DNA from: Bacteroides clarus YIT 12056
Lineage (GTDB): Bacteria > Bacteroidota > Bacteroidia > Bacteroidales > Bacteroidaceae
Assembly: GCF_900129655.1 (NCBI RefSeq)
Contig: NZ_FQWK01000003.1
Location: forward strand, 1-64,000
DNA: 64,000 nucleotides
Direction of reading: 5' to 3'
The notes beneath the pieces were generated by a model, which was given only the letters and a program-made list of their open reading frames with translations, was not told the DNA's origin and made no database searches. The position numbers and the translations under genes are program-made. The first letter of the stretch is position 1, and each line of letters starts with the position of its first letter. Positions 2,909 through 56,690 of the stretch are shown one piece after another.

Positions 2909-4090
2909 ATGGCGAGTTTCTTAGTTGACAAAGAAGGCTATTACGGAGAATTCGGCGGGGCATACGTTCCCGAGATACTCCACAGATGTGTAGAGGAGTT
3001 GCAGAACACCTATCTTGACGTTCTGCAAAGTGAGGATTTCAAGCGGGAGTACGACCAGTTGCTGCGCGACTACGTAGGGCGTCCTTCTCCGCTGTATCAG
3101 GCCAAACGCCTGTCGGAGAAGTACGGTTGCAGGATTTATCTGAAACGGGAAGACCTGAACCACACCGGCGCGCACAAAATCAACAATACCATCGGCCAGA
3201 TTTTGCTGGCGCGCCGCATGGGCAAGCACCGCATCATCGCCGAGACAGGAGCGGGACAGCACGGCGTCGCCACCGCCACCGTCTGCGCATTGATGAATAT
3301 GGAGTGCATCGTATATATGGGCAAGACCGATGTGGAGCGTCAGCACATCAACGTAGAGAAAATGAAGATGCTGGGAGCAACCGTAGTCCCCGTAACCAGC
3401 GGCAACATGACCTTGAAAGACGCCACCAACGAGGCCATACGCGACTGGTGCTGCCACCCTGCCGACACCTATTACATCATCGGCTCCACCGTAGGCCCGC
3501 ACCCCTATCCCGATATGGTGGCACGCCTGCAATCGGTTATCAGCGAGGAGATTAAGAAGCAGCTCATGGAAAAGGAAGGGCGCGATTGTCCGGACTATCT
3601 CATAGCCTGCGTAGGCGGCGGAAGCAATGCCGCCGGAACCATTTACCACTATGTCGACGACGAACGCGCGCAGATAGTTCTCGCCGAAGCCGGCGGTAAA
3701 GGAGTGGAAACGGGCATGACGGCCGCCACCATCGCCCTCGGCAAACTGGGCATCATTCATGGAGCGCGCACCTACGTCATCCAGAACGAGGACGGGCAGA
3801 TTGAGGAACCTTACTCCATCTCCGCCGGACTGGATTATCCGGGCATAGGTCCCATGCACGCCAACCTTGCCGCACGGAAACGCGCCATCGTACTCTCCGT
3901 AAATGACGACGAGGCTATCCGCGCCGCTTACGAACTGACAAAGCTCGAAGGCATCATCCCCGCATTGGAAAGCGCCCACGCCCTCGGCGCCTTGGAGAAA
4001 CTGAACTTCAAACCCGACGATGTGGTGGTACTGACCGTTTCGGGACGGGGGGATAAGGATGTGGAAACGTATTTAAGTTATGAGTTATGA
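2909..4090 (+). CDS. trpB: Tryptophan synthase beta chain
   Basis: 393 residues from the ATG at 2909. TrpB condenses indole with serine to give tryptophan, using pyridoxal phosphate, in an alpha2-beta2 complex with TrpA. The PLP lysine lies in HTGAHKINN (Lys90), and the phosphate-binding loop GGGSNAAG is present. The sequence begins at the conserved [16 protein letters not shown], so earlier in-frame starts (2789, 2882) are less likely; 2789 also falls inside the leader. First structural gene of the operon, although trpA is last. Its last codons (SYEL, stop) already belong to a seven-base repeat that continues downstream. Confidence 0.97.
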
Positions 4091-4135
4091 GTTATGAGTT
4101 ATGAGTTATAAGTTATGAGTTATAAGTTATGAGGG
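4074..4135 (+). repeat. Seven-base tandem repeat across the trpB stop codon
   Basis: About eight copies of AGTTATG/AGTTATA run from the last codons of trpB into the trpB-trpE gap. Because seven is not a multiple of three, the unit places ATGA start/stop overlaps in successive frames. The same unit, inverted, precedes trpC at 7838-7862. Confidence 0.75.
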
Positions 4136-4223
4136 TTTGTGATATAAACTGACTGTTACAACTGACTGCTACTACTTACTGTTACTACTATTTACTGTTA
4201 CTATTTACTCAATAAAGGAAGCA

Positions 4224-5651
4224 ATGAAACAATATAATTATCAAACGGTCAGCCGTACAGTGCTTGGCGACCTGCATACTCCCGTAAGCACTTATCTGAA
4301 AGTGCGCGACATCTTTCCTCAAAGCGCGCTCATGGAGAGTTCCGATTATCACGGCAGCGAGAACAACCGTTCTTTCATCGGGCTTTGTCCGGTGGCAAGC
4401 GTCAGCATAGACCACGGAACCGCCGTATTCCGCCTGCCCGACGGCACACGCGAGGAACATCCCGTTACCGGAGAGTACCGTGCGGAGAATGCTCTGCGGG
4501 ACTTTCTCAACCGCTTTCATGTGGAAGGCGAGTACAGCGACTATTGCGGGCTGTACGGCTACACCTCTTTCAACGCCGTACGCTATTTCGAGAACATTCC
4601 CGTAAAGGACAGCCGCGAAGCCACCAACGATGCGCCGGATATGCTATACATATTATACAAGTATCTCATCGTTTTCAACGACTTCAAGAACGAGATGCTG
4701 TTGCTGGAAATGCTGGCTCCCGGCGGGAAAAGCGAGCTGGACAAAGTACGGAAAGCCATTCACAACCGCAATTATACCGTTTACGACTTCCGTGCCGTAG
4801 GCGAAACGACCTCTCCGCTGACGGACGAGGAGCACAAAGCCAACATCCGCCAAGGAATAGCCCACTGCATGCGGGGTGATGTTTTCCAGATAGTCCTCTC
4901 CCGCCGCTTCGAGCAACGTTTCACAGGCGACGATTTCAAGCTCTATCGCGCTCTGCGCAGCATCAACCCCTCTCCCTACCTGTTTTACTTTGACTTCGGC
5001 GGTTTCCGTATCTTCGGCTCATCGCCCGAAACGCACTGCCGCATCGAAGGACGCCATGCCTATATAGACCCCATTGCCGGCACTACCAAGCGCACCGGCG
5101 ACCCGGAGCAGGATGCCGTAAACGCCCGTTACCTGCACGACGACCCGAAAGAAAACGCGGAGCACGTGATGCTGGTAGACCTCGCCCGCAACGACCTCAG
5201 CCGCAACTGCCACGACGTGAAAGTGGATTTCTACAAGGAGATGCAATATTACAGCCACGTCATTCACCTCGTGAGCCGCGTCAGCGGTACGCTGAACAGC
5301 GAAGCCGATCCTATCAAGGCGTTCATCGACACCTTCCCCGCCGGAACATTGAGCGGTGCGCCGAAAGTACGCGCCATGCAGCTCATCAGCGAACTGGAGC
5401 CGCATAATCGTGGCGCCTACGGCGGTTGCATCGGGTTCATCGGTCTGAACGGCAGTCTGAATCAGGCCATCACCATCCGCACATTCGTCAGCCGCAACGG
5501 GGTACTGTGGTTTCAGGCAGGCGGCGGCATCGTAGCCAAAAGCAATGACGAATACGAGCTGCAAGAGGTGAACAACAAACTGGGAGCATTGAAGAAGGCG
5601 ATTGTAATGGCGGAGAGAATGAAAGAAATGAAGAATGAGGATGAAGTATGA
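4224..5651 (+). CDS. trpE: Anthranilate synthase component I
   Basis: 475 residues, usual length for TrpE. It makes anthranilate from chorismate with ammonia supplied by TrpG. The segment ALMESSD (about residues 35-41) matches the LLES-type tryptophan feedback motif. The C-terminal chorismate-binding half includes IAGTTKRTGDPEQD, DLARNDLSR and FPAGTLSGAPK. An AAAGGAAGC Shine-Dalgarno-like stretch precedes the ATG. The last codons (KEMKNEDEV) fall in a run of seven-base units of the type AAGAATG/AGGATGA that continues into the gap before trpG. Confidence 0.96.
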   Translation: MKQYNYQTVSRTVLGDLHTPVSTYLKVRDIFPQSALMESSDYHGSENNRSFIGLCPVASVSIDHGTAVFRLPDGTREEHPVTGEYRAENALRDFLNRFHVEGEYSDYCGLYGYTSFNAVRYFENIPVKDSREATNDAPDMLYILYKYLIVFNDFKNEMLLLEMLAPGGKSELDKVRKAIHNRNYTVYDFRAVGETTSPLTDEEHKANIRQGIAHCMRGDVFQIVLSRRFEQRFTGDDFKLYRALRSINPSPYLFYFDFGGFRIFGSSPETHCRIEGRHAYIDPIAGTTKRTGDPEQDAVNARYLHDDPKENAEHVMLVDLARNDLSRNCHDVKVDFYKEMQYYSHVIHLVSRVSGTLNSEADPIKAFIDTFPAGTLSGAPKVRAMQLISELEPHNRGAYGGCIGFIGLNGSLNQAITIRTFVSRNGVLWFQAGGGIVAKSNDEYELQEVNNKLGALKKAIVMAERMKEMKNEDEV

Positions 5652-5685
5652 AGAATAAAGGATGAAAATTTTGAAAGATATGGAA

Positions 5686-6297: not shown

Positions 6298-6570
6298 TCA
6301 CGAGGATGCAGCGCAGACCTCATAAGGTACAAGCGGCCTCATAAGTACAGGTGCACATTGCGTGAAAAACAAGCGCACACTGCGTGAAAAACAAGCGCAC
6401 ACTGCGTGAAAGCCAAGCAAGCACTTCGTGAGAACCGAGCAGGCACTTCGCGAGAATCGAGCAGGCACTTCGTGAGAGCCGACCGCACACCTCATGGAAG
6501 CTGACCGCGCACCTCACAAGAGCCGGGCAGGCATCTCACGGGAGTGAAGCAAGCGCCTCACGAGAACAAA
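6298..6570. repeat. 22-bp degenerate tandem repeat between trpG and trpD
   Basis: About eleven copies with an exact 22-base step, for example GCGCACAC at 6373 and 6395, then units of the type GCAGGCACTTCGTGAGAACC. Units differ at several positions, so this is an old or fast-diverging array. It fills most of the 373-base gap inside the operon; the rest (6571-6664) is AT-rich with nothing else seen. Most units carry TGA, which moves through all frames because 22 is 1 modulo 3. Confidence 0.85.
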
Positions 6571-7663: not shown

Positions 7664-7681
7664 AAATCAAGTTATGCTATA

Positions 7682-7780
7682 CTGTCATTCAGAGAGAAGC
7701 GAAGCATCTCTTCCCTTTGTGAATACAAGTCTTTATGTGAATGTCAAGAAGAGAGAAGATTCTTCGCTCTGAATGACAGA
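7682..7780. repeat. Imperfect inverted repeat, family A copy 2
   Basis: CTGTCATTCAGAG with CGAAG at the left end matches CTTCGCTCTGAATGACAG (7762-7779) at the right end, with a five-base insertion in the left arm. It is related to the perfect copy at 1673-1762. Downstream, 7838-7862 holds about four copies of CATAACT, the reverse complement of the unit found after trpB. Confidence 0.65.
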
Positions 7781-7877
7781 TAGGATTAACCGATTATACG
7801 CATTTACTTAAACAGCGCCATATCACCCCCAACCCATAACTCATAACTCATAACTTATAACTCACCCCTCCCCTCCT

Positions 7878-8810: not shown

Positions 8811-8852
8811 GCAATGAATAATGAATCATAAATATAGTAAACAGTAACTCCC

Positions 8853-27440: not shown

Positions 27441-27616
27441 GCGGGCAGTCCGACAACTCCGAGCAGGCAGTCCGGCGGTCGCAAGCCCGCAGTCCGGTGG
27501 TCATAAGCAGGCAGTCCGGCAGCCGTAAGCAGGCAGTTCAAGAGCGCTGCCCCCACAGTTCGTCACCGCCGAGCCCGCAACCCGAAGTATCCGGGCTCAC
27601 AACCCGAAATCCATTC
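27441..27616. repeat. 22-bp degenerate tandem repeat before the primase-helicase
   Basis: About eight 22-base units headed GCRGGCAGTCCG (27441, 27463, 27485, ...), becoming looser toward the primase start. The head GCRGGC is also seen in the arrays at 6298 and 44418. The DUF4373 gene end (AAGCCCGACTGAAAGC) resembles a unit, so the array may have grown from it. Confidence 0.8.
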
Positions 27617-37314: not shown

Positions 37315-38391
37315 ATGAACAAGCCCATGAATACACCGGAAAGGATAAGGATTAAGGACATCGCCAGGATGGCTGATGTATCGGTGGGAACCGTAGACCG
37401 CGTTATCCACGGACGTAGCGGAGTGTCGGAAGCCAGCCGTAAACGTGTGGAAGAAATCTTGGAGAAGCTGAACTATCAACCCAATATGTATGCCAGCGCA
37501 CTGGCGTCCAACAAGAAGTATGCGTTTGCCTGCCTGTTGCCCCAGCACGACACCGGGGAGTATTGGACGGAAGTGGAAGGCGGCATCCACGAAGCGCTGA
37601 CAACCTATTCGGACTTCAACATCACCGTGAAGCTGACGTACTACGATCCGTACGACTACCGCTCCTTCGCCCGCGCCGCCCGCAGCATCGCGGACATGAA
37701 GCCCGACGGCGTATTGTTCGCCCCCACCGCCCCGCAGTATACCGCCCCCTTCACCGACGAGCTCGAAAAGCTGAATATACCTTATATATATATAGACTCG
37801 AACATCAAGGAAGCTCCCGCCCTCTCCTTCTTCGGACAGAACTCGCACCAAAGCGGATATTTCGCCGCACGCATGCTGATGCTGCTCGCCGGCGAGGATG
37901 CGCAGGAAATCGTAATCTTCCGCAAGATAAACGAAGGCATCGTAGGCTCCAACCAGCAGGAACGGCGGGAAATCGGTTTCCGGGAATACATGAGCGAGCA
38001 TCACCCCGCCTGCCGTATCTGGGAACTGAACCTGCACGCCAAACGCGACAGCGAGGACGCGCAAATGCTGGACGACTTCTTCCGCGCCCACCCCACCGTA
38101 AAGAACGGCATCACCTTCAACTCCAAAGCATATATCATCGGCGAATATCTGCAAAAGCACCGGAGAACGGATTTCAACCTCATGGGATATGACCTGCTGA
38201 AACGTAACGTGGACTGCCTGAAAGAGGGGAGCATCTTCTTCCTCATCGCCCAGCAACCCACCTTGCAGGGGTTCGACGGCATCAAAGCCCTGTGCGACCA
38301 TCTGATTCTGAAAAAAGAAATCGCAAGGGAGAATTTCATGCCGATTGACCTGCTGACGAAAGAGAATATAGAATACTATTATAATAAGTAA
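37315..38391 (+). CDS. LacI-family regulator, probable hexuronate repressor
   Basis: 358 residues from 37315 (ATG at 37327 also possible; in-frame starts further upstream precede the promoter). The N-terminal helix-turn-helix is IRIKDIARMADVSVGTVDRV with hinge region RKRVEEILEKLNYQPNMYA. Residues about 65-355 form a periplasmic-binding-protein-like effector domain (Peripla_BP type). Neighbours are kdgK-kdgA and altronate dehydratase, so the ligand is probably a hexuronate breakdown product such as KDG. Its last codons (ENIEYYYNK) are copied in a 30-bp array downstream. Confidence 0.88.
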   Translation: MNKPMNTPERIRIKDIARMADVSVGTVDRVIHGRSGVSEASRKRVEEILEKLNYQPNMYASALASNKKYAFACLLPQHDTGEYWTEVEGGIHEALTTYSDFNITVKLTYYDPYDYRSFARAARSIADMKPDGVLFAPTAPQYTAPFTDELEKLNIPYIYIDSNIKEAPALSFFGQNSHQSGYFAARMLMLLAGEDAQEIVIFRKINEGIVGSNQQERREIGFREYMSEHHPACRIWELNLHAKRDSEDAQMLDDFFRAHPTVKNGITFNSKAYIIGEYLQKHRRTDFNLMGYDLLKRNVDCLKEGSIFFLIAQQPTLQGFDGIKALCDHLILKKEIARENFMPIDLLTKENIEYYYNK

Positions 38392-38608
38392 GAGAATACG
38401 GAAGACCATTATAACAAGTAAGAGATATAAAATACCACCATAACAAGTAAGATAAAATAGAATACCATTATAATAAGTAAGAGCATATAGAATAACATTA
38501 TAATAAGTAAGGACATATAGAATAACATTATAATAAGCAAGGGCATATAGAATAACATTATAATAAGCAAGGGCATATAAAATAACATTATAATAAGCAA
38601 ATGTTAGA
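38350..38608. repeat. 30-bp tandem repeat grown from the regulator's 3' end
   Basis: Units of about 30 bases, with core GAATAACATTATAATAAG, begin within the last nine codons and stop of the regulator gene and continue for about eight copies, more alike toward the right. As 30 is a multiple of three, each early unit keeps the TAA in frame. The reverse strand reads as a repetitive open frame (AYYNVILYAL) that I regard as an artefact. Confidence 0.85.
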
Positions 38609-38682
38609 ATGACAGACAGTACAAGCTGATTATACATTAATAAATGTTGAAATTCAGTTTATATCAGTAACGATGATATAGG

Positions 38683-38883
38683 GTAATCTAAGGCTGAAAG
38701 CCTTTTTATCTTATAGCCCGGGGTAACACCCCGGGAATACGAATATGAATAACATTGCGCCCTGTAAGGGCAAAATATTTGAAGATTAATCTTTTGCCCT
38801 TACAGGGCGCAGGGTTCCGGGAACATTTATTCCCGGGGCGTTGCCCCGGGCTATAAGATAAAAAGCCCTTCAGGCTTAGGTTA
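38683..38883. repeat. 200-bp palindromic multi-hairpin element, family B
   Basis: The ends TAATCTAAGGCTGAAAGCC and GGGCTTCAGGCTTAGGTTA-like sequences are inverted. Inside, each half carries local hairpins GCCCGGGGTAACACCCCGGG and GCGCCCTGTAAGGGC, also mirrored. A half copy lies at 54521-54612. The structure is MITE- or REP-like, with no coding capacity. With the 30- and 14-bp arrays it fills most of the 834-base gap 38392-39225. Confidence 0.8.
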
Positions 38884-38924: not shown

Positions 38925-39140
38925 GGTGGTAAGATAACAAGGTGAAAGTGATAAGGTGGTAAGATGATAAAGCGATAAGGTAGAAATGATAAAATAGAAG
39001 TAATAAGGTAAAAGTGATAAGGTGGAAACGATAAAGTAGAAGTGATAAGGTAGAAGTGATAAGGTAGAAGTGATAAGGTAGAAGCGATAAAGTAGAAACG
39101 ATAAAGTAGCAGCAATAAGGTAGCAGCGATAAAGTACTAA
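38925..39140. repeat. 14-bp tandem repeat before altronate dehydratase
   Basis: About fifteen copies of GATAAGGTAGAAGT and variants with a 14-base step, most regular at 39040-39090. It ends about 85 bases before the altronate dehydratase start. The purine-rich strand is the plus strand. Confidence 0.85.
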
Positions 39141-44395: not shown

Positions 44396-44572
44396 CGCAG
44401 GGCAACAGCCGTAAGATGCGGGCTCAATTATGGTAACATGCGGGCTCGGCCACCACGAGACGCGGGCTCGGATGTAACAAAGTACGGGCTCAGCCATAAC
44501 AAGGCCTGCGCTCAAACACAGCAAGACATGCGCCCGGACACAACAGTGCGTGCGCTCAGACAGGGAATATAC
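44396..44572. repeat. 22-bp degenerate tandem repeat overlapping a stop codon
   Basis: About eight units with a 22-base step (GCGGGCTC at 44418, 44440, 44462, ...). The last unit, near 44550-44572, includes the final codons and stop of the MetE-like gene on the minus strand. With the nested palindrome it accounts for the 304-base gap 44252-44555. Confidence 0.8.
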
Positions 44573-45524: not shown

Positions 45525-45589
45525 ATTCGTTCTTTTTATTTGAAAATTAATACCTCAGCGCTTTGCCCTATCCCACGAGTGGCAAAGAA

Positions 45590-45785
45590 AATCAAAGAAT
45601 GGCAGGTCTTCTGACTCGGTTTCCATTTCAAACCGCCTTCCCAACCTTTTCCCGCATACGGGGAAATAATCAGTGGCAGAGGTGTATCTGTCGAAATGTT
45701 TGGTATGAAACCTTACAGCAGCGGGACTGTCCGGGATTTGCACCCGATTCCCTTTTAATTACCGATGATGACAACCATCGGTAAA
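45590..45785 (-). promoter_or_regulatory. Cobalamin (AdoCbl) riboswitch
   Basis: On the minus strand the sequence contains the B12-box-type core, in order: GGGTGCAAATCCCGGACAG, TCCCGCTGCTGTAA, GCCACTG, GGGAAGGC and GAGTCAGAAGACCTGCC, the standard arrangement of cobalamin riboswitches. It lies 65 bases upstream of the MetE-like start, and is preceded by a hairpin (ACCGATG/CATCGGT). Confidence 0.92.
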
Positions 45786-45796
45786 CCGATTCGCTG

Positions 45797-45804
45797 CAAA
45801 TATA
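45797..45804 (-). promoter_or_regulatory. Promoter -7 box of the riboswitch transcript
   Basis: TATATTTG on the minus strand just upstream of the riboswitch; CTTG about 21 bp further is a weak -33 box. Confidence 0.5.
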
Positions 45805-45927
45805 ACCAAAGTATTTGAAAGTCGGCAAGTGAAATCCCTATTTTTCATCGGCCGCTTCAAAACAGATTGACACATCATCTAATATATAATTATCAATAAT
45901 GTGCAACTATAAAAACCACGCAAACTG

Positions 45928-46084: not shown

Positions 46085-48295
46085 ATGATACAAACGGTAC
46101 TCAAGCGTGACGGACGCGTCGTCGGCTTCAACGAAGAAAAAATAGTAACCGCCATCCGCAAGGCCATGCTCCATACGGACAAGGGAGAAGACATGCAACT
46201 GATACGCCAAATCACCGACCACATCTCCTTTAAGGGCGATGCCCAAATGACGGTGGAAGCCATTCAGGACCTGGTGGAAATGGAGCTGATGAAGAGCAGC
46301 CGTAAAGATGTCGCACAGAAATACATTGCCTACCGCAACCAGCGCAGTATCGCCCGCAAGGCAAAGACGCGCGATATGTTTCTGGAAATCATCAACATCA
46401 AATCCAACGACATCACCCGCGAGAACGCCAACATGAATGCCGACACTCCGGCAGGCATGATGATGAAGTTCGCCAGCGAGACCACCAAACCGTTTGTAGA
46501 CGACTATCTGCTGAGCGAAGAAGTGCTGGATGCCGTCAGCCACAACTACCTGCACATCCACGACAAGGATTATTACCCTACCAAGAGCCTGACATGCGTG
46601 CAGCACCCGCTGGACCGCATCCTGACATACGGCTTCTCCGCCGGACACGGAGAATCGCGCCCTGCAAAACGCATCGAGACCGCCAGTATCCTGGGTTGCA
46701 TCTCATTGGAAACCGCCCAAAACGAAATGCACGGCGGACAAGCCATTCCCGCATTCGACTTCTATCTCGCCCCCTACGTGCGCAACAGCTACATCGAGGA
46801 AATAAAGAATCTGGAAGAGCTGAACGGCAAGGACTACTCGCACCTCTACCAAAAAGAGCTGACAGACTATCTGCAACAACCGCTGGACGGCCTGACCGAC
46901 GACCGCCGCATTGTCCAGCATGCCGTGAACAAGACCGTAGCCCGCGTGCACCAGTCCATGGAAGCGTTCATCCACAACATGAACACGATACACTCCCGTG
47001 GCGGAAACCAAGTGGTTTTCAGCTCCATCAACTATGGCACGGACACTTCCGCCGAGGGGCGCTGCATCATCCGCGAACTGCTGAAAAGCACGTATCAAGG
47101 CGTAGGAAACGGCGAGACAGCCATCTTCCCCATTCAGATATGGAAAAAGAAACGCGGCGTAAGCTACCTGCCCGAAGACCGCAACTACGACCTCTACCAG
47201 CTTGCCTGCAAAGTCACCGCACGCCGTTTCTTCCCGAACTTCCTGAATCTGGACGCCACCTTCAACCGCAGCGACGACTGGAGAGCCGACGACCCGAAAC
47301 GCTACGAGCACGAAGTCGCCACCATGGGATGCCGTACGCGTGTGTTTGAAAACCGCTTCGGCCCGAAAACATCCATCGGCCGAGGAAACATCTCTTTCTC
47401 CACAATCAACATCGTCCGCCTTGCCATAGAGTGCATGGACATAGCGGACAAGGAGCAGCGCATCGCCCTCTTCTTTGCCAAGCTGGACGCCATGCTCGAC
47501 ATCACCGCCCGCCAGTTGCACGAACGCATGGAGTTCCAAAAGACGGCGTTTGCCAAACAGTTCCCCTTGCTGATGTCCGCCTTGTGGATAGGTTGCGACA
47601 AGCTCAAGCCGAACGAAGACATCTCTTCCGTAATCAACCAAGGTACGCTGGGCATCGGTTTCATCGGTCTTGCGGAATGTCTGGTCGCGCTTTTGGGCAA
47701 GCACCACGGAGAATCGGAAGAAGCCCAGGAATTAGGTCTGAAAATCGTGACGTACATGCGCGACCGCGCCAATCAGTTCTCCGACCAATATCAGCATAAT
47801 TACAGCGTGCTGGCCACGCCCGCCGAAGGTCTTTCAGGCAAGTTCACCCGTGTAGACCGCAAGAAGTTCGGCTGTCTGCCGGGCATCACAGACCGCGACT
47901 ACTACACCAACTCCAACCACGTGCCCGTGTACTACAAGTGCAGCGCCCGCCATAAAGCGGAAGTAGAAGCCCCCTACCACGACCTGACCCGCGGCGGACA
48001 CATCTTCTACGTGGAGATTGACGGCGACGCCACCCACAACCCCGAAGTCATCATGCGTGTAGTAGATATGATGGACCGGTACAACATCGGTTACGGCTCG
48101 GTGAACCACAACCGCAACCGCTGCCTGGAATGCGGATACGAAAACTCCACCCCCGACCTGGAAGTTTGTCCGAAATGCGGCAGCACCCACATCGACAAAC
48201 TGCAACGCATCACCGGCTACCTGGTAGGAACCACCGACCGTTGGAACCAAGCCAAACTCGCCGAACTGAACGACAGGGTAGTACATGGGAATTAA
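46085..48295 (+). CDS. nrdD: Anaerobic ribonucleoside-triphosphate reductase
   Basis: 736 residues, class III ribonucleotide reductase making dNTPs without oxygen. An N-terminal ATP-cone (about 3-95; VLKRDGRVVGFNEEKI) gives allosteric control. The barrel follows, then a C-terminal four-cysteine zinc site (CLECGYENS and CPKCGS) and the glycyl-radical loop ITGYLVGTTDRW, with the radical at about Gly711. NrdG, encoded next, installs the radical. The gene's last codons start a seven-base repeat. Confidence 0.97.
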   Translation: MIQTVLKRDGRVVGFNEEKIVTAIRKAMLHTDKGEDMQLIRQITDHISFKGDAQMTVEAIQDLVEMELMKSSRKDVAQKYIAYRNQRSIARKAKTRDMFLEIINIKSNDITRENANMNADTPAGMMMKFASETTKPFVDDYLLSEEVLDAVSHNYLHIHDKDYYPTKSLTCVQHPLDRILTYGFSAGHGESRPAKRIETASILGCISLETAQNEMHGGQAIPAFDFYLAPYVRNSYIEEIKNLEELNGKDYSHLYQKELTDYLQQPLDGLTDDRRIVQHAVNKTVARVHQSMEAFIHNMNTIHSRGGNQVVFSSINYGTDTSAEGRCIIRELLKSTYQGVGNGETAIFPIQIWKKKRGVSYLPEDRNYDLYQLACKVTARRFFPNFLNLDATFNRSDDWRADDPKRYEHEVATMGCRTRVFENRFGPKTSIGRGNISFSTINIVRLAIECMDIADKEQRIALFFAKLDAMLDITARQLHERMEFQKTAFAKQFPLLMSALWIGCDKLKPNEDISSVINQGTLGIGFIGLAECLVALLGKHHGESEEAQELGLKIVTYMRDRANQFSDQYQHNYSVLATPAEGLSGKFTRVDRKKFGCLPGITDRDYYTNSNHVPVYYKCSARHKAEVEAPYHDLTRGGHIFYVEIDGDATHNPEVIMRVVDMMDRYNIGYGSVNHNRNRCLECGYENSTPDLEVCPKCGSTHIDKLQRITGYLVGTTDRWNQAKLAELNDRVVHGN

Positions 48296-48420
48296 GAATT
48301 AAGAGTTAAGAATTAAGAGTTAAGAATTAAGAGTTGGTTAAGAGCTTTCATGCTGAATTCATCATTCTTAATTCTTAATTCTCAATTCTCAATTTCCCTA
48401 ATTCTTAATTCTTCATTAAA
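48289..48420. repeat. Seven-base repeats from the nrdD stop, partly inverted
   Basis: GAATTAA/GAGTTAA units (about seven copies) begin in the nrdD stop region. After a short spacer the reverse complement TTAATTC/TCAATTC follows in about seven units, so the gap can form a long imperfect hairpin. TAA appears in successive frames. Confidence 0.75.
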
Positions 48421-48423
48421 AAA

Positions 48424-53432: not shown

Positions 53433-54467
53433 ATGACTTGCAACGCCCAATCCATTGACAAAGCTCTCGTGGCACGGCGCTTTGCCCATGCGCGAGACAC
53501 ATACGGCAGCGAAGCCCGCGTACAGCAGCAGGTTGCGGAAAAAATGCTGCGCCTGCTCACGGCGCACGCCTGTACATCCGCTACCGCACCGGACGGTAAC
53601 GGTGACAGGCAACAGCCGCGGAACGCCGCCCTTTCCTTCCGTCATATTGCGGAGTTCGGATGCGGTACGGGCTGTTACTCCCGCCTGTTGCTGCGCACGT
53701 TGCAACCGGAAACGTTGCTGCTTAACGACCTGTGCCCCGAAATGGAAGAGTGCATACACGACTTGCTGACGGGTGGCGGGCGTCTGCCATGCGCTCCTCA
53801 GGCTGGCAACGCCTCTGGGGTTCTTTACGATGCCGATGTGGAACTTTACAGCGCCGAAACTCCATCCGAGAGCACCAAAGTACCATCCGAAAACGCCAAA
53901 GTGCCATCTGAAAACGCCAAAGTGCCATCTGAAAACACCAAAGCGCCACTTTGCGGAAGCTCTCCTGCAACTACCGCCGTCAGCTTTCTGCCGTGTGACG
54001 CGGAAACGCTTGATTTCCCGCAAGGGACGGACTTGATAACGTCCTGCTCCACCTTGCAATGGTTTGCCGATACGGAACGGTTCTTCGCCCGTTGCCACCG
54101 CTTTCTGTCGGACGGCGGCATTCTTGCATTCAGTACTTTCGGGAAGAAGAATATGCGGGAGATACATACCCTGACCGGACACGGACTGGAGTATCTGTCG
54201 CTCGATAACCTGAAAGTCCTGCTCTCTCCCCGTTTCGAGATTCTTTATGCCGAAGAAGAGATTGTCTCCCTGTCGTTCGGCACTCCGCTCGAAGTGTTGC
54301 GACACCTCAAACAAACCGGAGTTACCGGCACGGAAAAGAGGGTTTGGACACGCGGACGTTTGCAGAGTTTCTGTGATGAATATATACGGATGTGCGGCAA
54401 CGACGACCGCAGCGTTTCGCTGACTTATCACCCGATTTATGTGATTGCGAGGAAGAGGGAAAGATAA
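53433..54467 (+). CDS. bioC: Malonyl-ACP O-methyltransferase with repetitive insertion
   Basis: 344 residues from 53433 (AGAGGAA Shine-Dalgarno just upstream); BioC is usually about 250-280. It methylates malonyl-ACP to start pimelate synthesis. SAM motif I is IAEFGCGTGCYS (about 72-83), and LPCDAETLDFP and DLITSCSTLQWF follow. Between these parts lies a block (about 144-171) of seven-residue units of the type VPSENAK from a 21-bp DNA repeat, plus a less regular flanking segment and another insert at about 46-66. The gene end (GRER, stop) begins AAGATAA-type seven-base repeats. Confidence 0.92.
   Translation: MTCNAQSIDKALVARRFAHARDTYGSEARVQQQVAEKMLRLLTAHACTSATAPDGNGDRQQPRNAALSFRHIAEFGCGTGCYSRLLLRTLQPETLLLNDLCPEMEECIHDLLTGGGRLPCAPQAGNASGVLYDADVELYSAETPSESTKVPSENAKVPSENAKVPSENTKAPLCGSSPATTAVSFLPCDAETLDFPQGTDLITSCSTLQWFADTERFFARCHRFLSDGGILAFSTFGKKNMREIHTLTGHGLEYLSLDNLKVLLSPRFEILYAEEEIVSLSFGTPLEVLRHLKQTGVTGTEKRVWTRGRLQSFCDEYIRMCGNDDRSVSLTYHPIYVIARKRER
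53862..53947. repeat. 21-bp in-frame repeat inside bioC
   Basis: Four units of the form CCATCTGAAAACGCCAAAGTG with a 21-base step, encoding PSENAKV-type repeats. The step keeps the reading frame. Confidence 0.85.
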
Positions 54468-54520
54468 AAGATTAAAGATAAAAACATGAAAGATAAAGAA
54501 TAAAGGATATTAGTAATAGA

Positions 54521-54612
54521 GTAACCTAAGGCTGAAAGCCTTCTATCGCAAAGCCCGGGGTAACACCCCGGGAATACGAATATAACCAACATTGCGCCCT
54601 GTAAGGGCAAAA
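54521..54612. repeat. Half copy of the family B multi-hairpin element
   Basis: GTAACCTAAGGCTGAAAGCC, then GCCCGGGGTAACACCCCGGG and GCGCCCTGTAAGGGC in the same order and spacing as the left half of 38683-38883. The mirrored half is absent. It splits bioD from the rest of the biotin genes. Confidence 0.8.
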
Positions 54613-54639
54613 AAGATAAAATATAAAGTATAAAAAGAC

Positions 54640-56534: not shown

Positions 56535-56690
56535 CGGGGCGGAGTTATTCGCCTTGCGGAATGAAAATATCTATCCCGTGGGATGAAATTATTCGTCCCA
56601 TGAGATGAAAACCACCCGTCCCGTAAGATGAAAATATCCGTTCCGTAAGACGAAATCATCCATCCCGTAAGACGGATTCGGCTCTGCAGT
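56535..56690. repeat. 22-bp degenerate tandem repeat between convergent genes
   Basis: Six or seven units of the form GATGAAAATATCCGTTCCGTAA with a 22-base step (one unit of 23). Most carry both TGA and TAA. It fills the gap between the glycosyltransferase and the permease. Confidence 0.8.

Follow-up and report, generated by a model that had tools for sequence, protein, structure and literature searches.

Seven-base repeat arrays at gene ends in Bacteroides clarus: many are probably arms of a dispersed palindromic element family

Several genes of Bacteroides clarus YIT 12056 end in arrays of seven-base units that run through the stop codon, which raises the question of what such arrays are. 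In the window, the 64,000-nt stretch of contig NZ_FQWK01000003.1 analysed here, a sequence-only reading placed arrays in the last codons of trpB, trpE, trpC, nrdD and bioC (gene names with which NCBIfam models agree), and read them as possible all-frame translation stops, re-initiation ramps inside operons, or slippage products tolerated only past stop codons. Here we conclude that, quite probably, more than half of such arrays are the arms of palindromic elements, a non-coding family with dispersed copies, and that those at gene ends look like tolerated passengers and not a translation signal.

Window arrays were scored by a strict lag-7 measure against 2000 dinucleotide shuffles. The strongest is a purine-rich plus-strand array of eight AGTTATR units (4076-4133, score 39) across the trpB stop codon (4088-4090), which codes for the tail SYEL* of TrpB (...LSYEL*). 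The nrdD array (score 25, protein tail ...HGN*) is also strong, both scores being reached in 0/2000 shuffles. The plus-strand AAAGATA-like array across the bioC stop (54460-54509, score 11, p=0.002, tail ...RKRER*) is moderate, as is the plus-strand AATGAAT repeat directly past the trpC stop (8813-8834, score 8, p=0.001), which may also be termed weak (TRF score 30). The AATGAAG-like repeat across the trpE end (5616-5666, plus strand, TRF score 49) is weak (strict score 7, p=0.085; looser score, p=0.0025). The arrays of trpB, nrdD, bioC and, weakly, trpE thus begin within the last codons as first described, whereas that of trpC begins past the stop. Two further window arrays are both reverse complement before start codons: an AGTTATR array in minus-strand reading that stops 15 nt short of the trpC start (7831-7862), and an array before nrdG (48357-48394).

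The nrdD and nrdG arrays are the two arms of one palindrome. The left arm, of GAATTAA/GAGTTAA units, lies over the nrdD stop (48289-48332, plus strand), followed by a degenerate centre (48333-48356) and a right arm of reverse-complement units upstream of the nrdG start (plus-strand coordinates as above). Region 48289-48423 folds over its whole length (-46.5 kcal/mol, z=-8.9), and a covariance model of the element family, R1, matches 48311-48387, the centre included, with 46 bits (E=1.8e-7). The trpB array is a solitary arm: the trpB-trpE gap contains no complementary partner (fold z +1.2) and no R1 match, and a pyrimidine-rich degenerate repeat upstream of trpE (4148-4209, plus strand, from TRF) is complementary to the array no better than shuffles. 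Arms of dispersed elements in the relative G079 contain an exact match to 27 nt of the trpB array. The bioC-bioD gap is exceptional in that its right array (54611-54635) is on the same strand as the left one and does not pair with it (score 3); a second repeat type lies to the right of the bioC array. The unpaired trpB array with no R1 match, and the weak or unpaired arrays of trpE, trpC and bioC, count against reading the arrays as arms of palindromic elements.

The genome sample comprised 80 stretches of 20 kb plus the window (1.664 of 3.749 Mb, 44%), with genes from a home-made codon-usage caller that misses genes, and the gaps counted were those of 20-700 bp (699 gaps, 117,665 bases). At a score of at least 12, the cut-off for period-7 counts, these gaps contain 61 period-7 arrays (mean 0.0 in five dinucleotide shuffles), and 1.21 Mb of coding DNA contains three. 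Other periods in gaps (4-6, 8-13, 15 and 16) give 0-3 arrays each, and periods 14 (40) and 21 (18) are harmonics of 7. Unit length seven thus exceeds both shuffles and other lengths, as in heptameric simple sequence repeats. Periods 22 (26 intergenic arrays) and 23 (6) probably represent another repeat, in a separate class from period 7. Tandem repeats of 22 bp are seen in the window at 6353-6482, 27462-27537, 44488-44562 and 56561-56672.

A score of 10 was the cut-off for gene-edge placement, folding, ortholog comparison and the gap census. At this cut-off, 64 of 78 arrays are no more than 15 nt from a gene edge, where random placement gives 43.6 (maximum 56 of 5000). The genome-wide scan of gene ends that had been proposed therefore yields the expected excess of period 7 over shuffles, while the clustering is at gene edges generally and not at stops alone. 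Stop-edge arrays are purine-rich reading inward in 41/47 cases, and start-edge arrays of co-directional gaps in 22/25, the latter thus standing as reverse complement before starts. Since arrays are purine-rich inward at both edges, the unit itself is mostly found on the left of a gap and its reverse complement on the right, independently of the direction in which the genes run.

Seven being 1 modulo 3, a stop within the unit was expected to appear in every frame, and all three frames are indeed stopped in 35 of the 47 arrays on the stop side. This count is what would be expected if arrays were selected as all-frame stops of translation or as ramps for re-initiation within operons, and the loss of polarity in divergent gaps (purine-rich inward in just 2/6; Fisher p=0.006, small n) points the same way. 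However, start-side arms read as the reverse complement, arrays also occur in 7 of 98 convergent-gene gaps, and most relatives do without one: the nrdD-nrdG boundary has an array in 4 of 18 loci, with a gap of at most 15 nt in 11 of the 18, and the trpB-trpE boundary in 5 of 30. We give hardly any credence to this functional reading, and the all-frame stops look permissive, not functional. By gap type, arrays were found in 4 of 111 divergent gaps and 52 of 588 others (p=0.08).

The other earlier proposal, that arrays arise by slippage and are tolerated only past stop codons, relates to an idea of Mrazek 2007 (as reported in PMC4679880). In this account AT-rich seeds at each gene end expand independently in 7-nt steps and survive only past existing stops. 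It is consistent with the all-frame stops of stop-side arrays, with the 7-nt length steps between copies described below, and with the closeness to stop codons of the elements matched by R1. Local seeds, however, would not be expected to give few related unit families genome-wide, and 62 of 78 arrays fit the degenerate unit A-R-T-K-R-W-N, against 18.7 for permuted units (the consensus being post hoc). The inverted partner arms, the shared core and the near-identical copies at unlinked sites are likewise left unexplained by it.

The pairing of arms was measured in 16 two-sided gaps, where the reverse-complement match between arms of the same gap averaged 17.6, against 9.9 for arms of other gaps (0/20000 permutations). 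A gap's own partner was the top match of 16 in three gaps and among the best four in 12; it is seldom the top match because the unit is common to many gaps. Among array gaps of at most 330 bp, 32 of 53 pair with themselves above all 20 shuffles. In the census of 56 array gaps, 28 have an R1 match, 18 have arrays on both sides, 32 have either and 24 have neither. Hence 32 of 56 array gaps hold dispersed palindromic (REP/MITE-like) elements or both arms, and the remaining 24, that of trpB among them, have a solitary array with no R1 match. Solitary arrays are what slippage would produce, and for these 24 gaps slippage is possible. For paired elements it is largely refuted, and as a whole account we reject it on the inverted arms, the core and the near-identical dispersed copies; overall, independent slippage at each gene end is unlikely.

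The element is about 70-170 bp long and non-coding, and consists of an arm of about three to five heptamers, a short asymmetric core and an inverted arm. The core, GGCTGCGC ... GCYGCATRG, is found between arms of at least six heptamer families across Bacteroides. In this genome and G079, GGCTGCGC-N-GCYGCATRG sits between arms of three heptamer families, and in relatives, at loci taken from model matches, the same core sits between AGTGATT, AATTATG, AATTGAG, AATGAAG, AGAGTTG and AGAGTGG arms. Several AGTTATR elements of G079, present in both orientations, have a common arm spacing (83 at five loci), a common centre and GC-rich hairpins on the outside, and in some species an outer inverted repeat, AAATGATAATTTAGCGG, surrounds the element. 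A short core regex alone proved too loose as a search tool (56 matches, 46 of them in genes without arms and 10 outside genes); six of the 10 matches outside genes have arms, with 1.7 expected in shuffled gaps.

Fifteen of 18 elements were aligned, leaving out one false (L142) and two poor ones (L100 and L210). In this set 93.2% of cells pair, and double-change cells number 67, where shuffling gives 28 +/- 4.4 and sliding no more than 17. Of five covariation measures, two were not above shuffles (pairs with changes on both sides, 39/500; additional pair types, 499/500). The 15 elements had been preselected for arm pairing, so the covariation figures favour structure. R1 finds 34 loci at E<=0.001 in the 1.664-Mb sample, 11 of them from the training set, and these are thus palindromic, intergenic and multicopy in the manner of REP/REPIN elements. 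The earlier association with stops holds to the extent that for 32 of the 34 a stop codon is no more than 40 nt away. Overlap with called genes is absent at 23 loci, 40-60 nt at two and 1-15 nt at the rest. By gap type, 23 loci are co-directional, eight convergent and one divergent, with two at stretch ends, and divergent gaps are under-used (1/111 vs 31/588, p=0.045).

R1 matches were found in 46 of 60 genomes of the genus, from 0 to at least 79 per genome (79 candidates having been scored), a count in which a palindrome may figure on both strands. The genome G031, which has ACGATTT arrays, gave no match in the genus scan and one weak match (26 bits) in a separate scan. In other families of the phylum, six of 20 array loci match R1 (E<=0.001), through their arms, and a core-like GGCTGCGC is close by at just 1/20.

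A further possibility is that the elements work as RNA, either as functional mRNA hairpins or as bidirectional terminators, protecting transcripts or ending them. Array gaps do fold far better than shuffles (for co-directional gaps, mean z -4.1 in 16 with arrays vs -1.1 in 77 without), and 8 of 34 elements lie between convergent genes. Against this, the sense strand folds better than the antisense in just 13 of 39 co-directional gaps (Wilcoxon p=0.027, favouring the complement), the sense strand has fewer G-U pairs (89 vs 165 antisense), and elements are absent from most orthologous boundaries examined. There is therefore no sign of selection on the mRNA strand, and a role as hairpin or terminator is very unlikely. 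Gaps without arrays have no strand bias in folding (sense better in 138/294). Arm mismatches are biased to A-C in mRNA, the antisense strand having nearly twice the G-U pairs. A terminator at nrdD was considered and rejected: within 48289-48423 no GC stem with U tract was found, and there is no plus-strand terminator-like site at the palindrome. One minus-strand terminator-like site, at 48259-48275, lies outside it.

Evidence for dispersal comes from near-identical copies, in a comparison that took in 15 of 20 loci. The genome G070 has five copies 88.7-99.2% identical over 122-138 nt and a further pair 92.0% identical over 163 nt, and G001 has four copies 97.3-98.7% identical over 74-81 nt. 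No flank similarity was found in 17 copy pairs (16 among these G070 and G001 copies and the further G070 pair), a pattern of near-identical dispersed copies with unrelated flanks like that of MITEs. Further near-identical pairs occur in G080 (96.8% over 95 nt) and in G068 (98.7% over 79 nt), the flank comparison having covered G070 and G001. One G070 sibling copy differs by a 7-nt gap. The outer repeat AAATGATAATTTAGCGG occurs in G070 as 14 inward pairs spaced 137-271 nt, with 151 nt at eight loci, 137 at two, and 144, 158, 230 and 271 once each; this count excludes five short palindromes, in which the pair lies 22-25 nt apart. The twelve spacings of 137-158 nt are equal modulo 7, and 230 and 271 are not. 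Near-identity with unrelated flanks, together with spacing equal modulo 7, indicates that copies disperse as units, after which entire heptamers are gained or lost.

Orthologous boundaries turn over fast with respect to arrays. The surveys of two boundaries used a cut-off of 9. For trpB-trpE it covered 30 of 45 places, at least three of which were not cleanly delimited (L053, L058 and L080); one of the five arrays, that of G018, counts at score 9 and not at 10, and the gap is at most 13 nt in nine of 30. The arrays of relatives at this boundary use other units, AGTGATT in G034 and G005 and ACGATTT in G031. By eye, the trpB-trpE gaps L057, L062 and L063 of relatives have inverted arms of 9-10-base units (CACGGATTA / CACAGATTA), the same architecture with another period. 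For nrdD-nrdG the survey covered 18 of 29 places, and the units are GAATTAA here, AAGTTGA in G079 and AATTAAA-like in two others. Orthologous boundaries were also compared with those of two relatives, in 56 cases. An array is present here in nine of these (eight distinct boundaries), and in one of the nine the relative has an array too; at one further boundary the array is in the relative only.

The heptamer vocabulary is particular to each species. AGTTATR matches number 68 here, 129 in G079, 17 in G031 and no more than four in any of the 57 remaining genomes sampled from the genus. AGTGATW peaks in G034 (120) and GTTGAAA in G079 (83), and many species have none. For some of the heptamer searches the reversed-pattern control is not independent, the reversed pattern being a rotation of the same family, and the others are clean barring a few reversed matches. 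Across the phylum, AGTTATR arrays have a patchy distribution, in 33 of 296 genomes, with a control that is clean barring a few reversed-pattern matches. In distant Bacteroidota these arrays (L149-L168) are, by eye, often inverted at gene edges and lack the Bacteroides core.

What is observed directly is the dispersal, the pairing and co-varying arms, the 7-nt steps, the position by stops and the absence from most orthologous sites examined. To explain it, we suggest that the palindromic elements spread as selfish DNA, either transposase-dependent or template-copied. Insertion or survival would be favoured directly past stop codons, as the arms bring stops in all frames; all-frame stops would make insertion over the last codons nearly harmless and would also fix the polarity of the arms. 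The arms might then grow, shrink and homogenise through slippage of one heptamer, the partner arm following via hairpin-templated repair or recopying. Solitary arrays such as that of trpB may be decayed halves.

Among known systems, the elements resemble REP/REPIN elements, which are associated with RAYT transposases (Bertels and Rainey 2011, PMC3116915; Di Nocera 2013, PMC3733652). As described there, these too are short, palindromic, non-coding and mostly intergenic, with many copies per genome and within-genome families. The Bacteroides element differs in that its stem consists of tandem heptamers, and no RAYT could be linked to it. PF01797 was found in six of 23 genomes, of which G000, G005 and G012 are element-rich, G023 is rich with a weak PF01797 match, and G018 and G011 are poor. 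There is no PF01797 match in the array-rich G079, G034, G031, G066 and G081 (genome completeness 72-99%, G079 99%), and no period-7 array within the loci of four PF01797 genes (L229-L232, 2.2-3.3 kb). The sole IS200-like gene of this genome (L229) is bordered by a different repeat, and a cognate RAYT gene flanked by the same repeat as the elements was thus not seen. RAYT was rejected as general mobiliser on its absence from the five rich genomes and on this flanking repeat, and the analysis turned up no mobiliser. The repeat beside L229 resembles, by eye, window repeats near 38,700 and 54,530, so the repeat at 38681-38880 and 54521-54620 may be the RAYT-type REP of this genome. This second palindromic repeat of the window contains GCCCGGGGTAACACCCCGGG with GCGCCCTGTAAGGGCAAAA. 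At 38681-38880 it has on one side a 30-base unit repeated eight times and beginning at a gene end (38360-38597), and on the other an array of about 12 units of 14 bases (2 x 7) at 38970-39136.

MITEs, which are discussed for Porphyromonas gingivalis in PMC5771137, are similar in their inverted repeats, lack of a gene, near-identical dispersed copies and fixed length, save for the 7-nt steps, and unlike in that the heptamer arms of Bacteroides vary by species while the core stays. No parent transposon of MITE type was found among outer-repeat sites in six genomes, with one outer repeat tried. These sites include one inward pair 0.8-3 kb apart (G070 C65, 1.85 kb). The ORF between its two sites (489 aa) does not, judged by eye, encode a transposase, and the right site is a complete short palindrome. 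By eye, the four G001 copies have no consistent target-site duplication.

The nearest published match in architecture is that of the paired heptanucleotides of Geobacter metallireducens, described in PMC2700814 as multicopy, 'mostly found in pairs' on opposite strands and read as putative IHF/HU regulator sites; class 3 consists of five tandem heptanucleotides (MTYCTGA). The Geobacter unit differs from those of Bacteroides, and PMC2700814 is not known to state a common core or mobility for these elements. TAACTGA repeats are reported from Beggiatoaceae, Cyanobacteria and Bacteroidetes by MacGregor 2015 (PMC4679880), who describes intergenic repeats with all-frame stops and stop-codon overlap and considers a horizontal or mobile origin. 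They resemble the arrays studied here in being intergenic heptamer arrays, in overlapping stop codons and in bringing stops to all three frames; unlike them, they are described as direct repeats (169 sets, one indirect) and mostly upstream of starts, and their description in PMC4679880 is not known to include inverted arms with a conserved core. The exact TAACTGA unit is absent from the consensus units of the 78 arrays. TAACTGA reversed is, by rotation, AGTTATC, one base from AGTTATG, and AGTTATG reversed is, likewise by rotation, TAACTCA, which differs from TAACTGA at one base. For heptameric long simple sequence repeats, in which seven is favoured, polymerase slippage was proposed (Mrazek 2007, via PMC4679880 and PMC4692102); these are reported there as tandem repeats and not as arms of a dispersed palindrome. 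TAACTGA and the Helicobacter pylori unit GTGATTA (quoted in PMC4692102) also fit A-R-T-K-R-W-N, with permuted letters fitting in 6% and 19%, and the ACGATTT of G031 does not. Given the post hoc consensus, the permuted fits and the ACGATTT misfit, this tie is a lead at most. REP and MITE elements, heptamer repeats and the paired heptamer arrays of Geobacter are therefore known already, and their combination was not found in the literature consulted; a search beyond whose reach many subscription papers lay yielded no account of heptamer-armed palindromes in Bacteroides.

A broader reading, which we consider doubtful, is that the elements belong to a kind of mobile DNA that rebuilds its stem seven bases at a time, in which core and outer ends persist while both arms switch heptamer together, keeping period 7 and pairing. 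On this reading, the heptamer repeats known from Beggiatoaceae, cyanobacteria, Geobacter and H. pylori would be remnants of the same class. The elements offer a source for many bacterial heptamer arrays that are without an agreed cause, and sister species with the same core between different heptamer arms allow the stepwise change of paired arms to be watched. The elements also explain some of the differences in operon gap length among Bacteroides, and annotated C-terminal residues, such as the last four of TrpB here, can derive from a repeat.

Some other features of the window may be recorded. The trpD-trpC gap contains an inverted repeat with TGTCATTCAGAGAGAAGCGAAGCATCTC (7680-7785), and a similar sequence occurs in L092 near 9800. 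Rfam matches comprise a Bacteroid-trp leader RNA (RF01692) at 2674-2814 on the plus strand and a cobalamin riboswitch (RF00174) at 45585-45805 on the minus strand.
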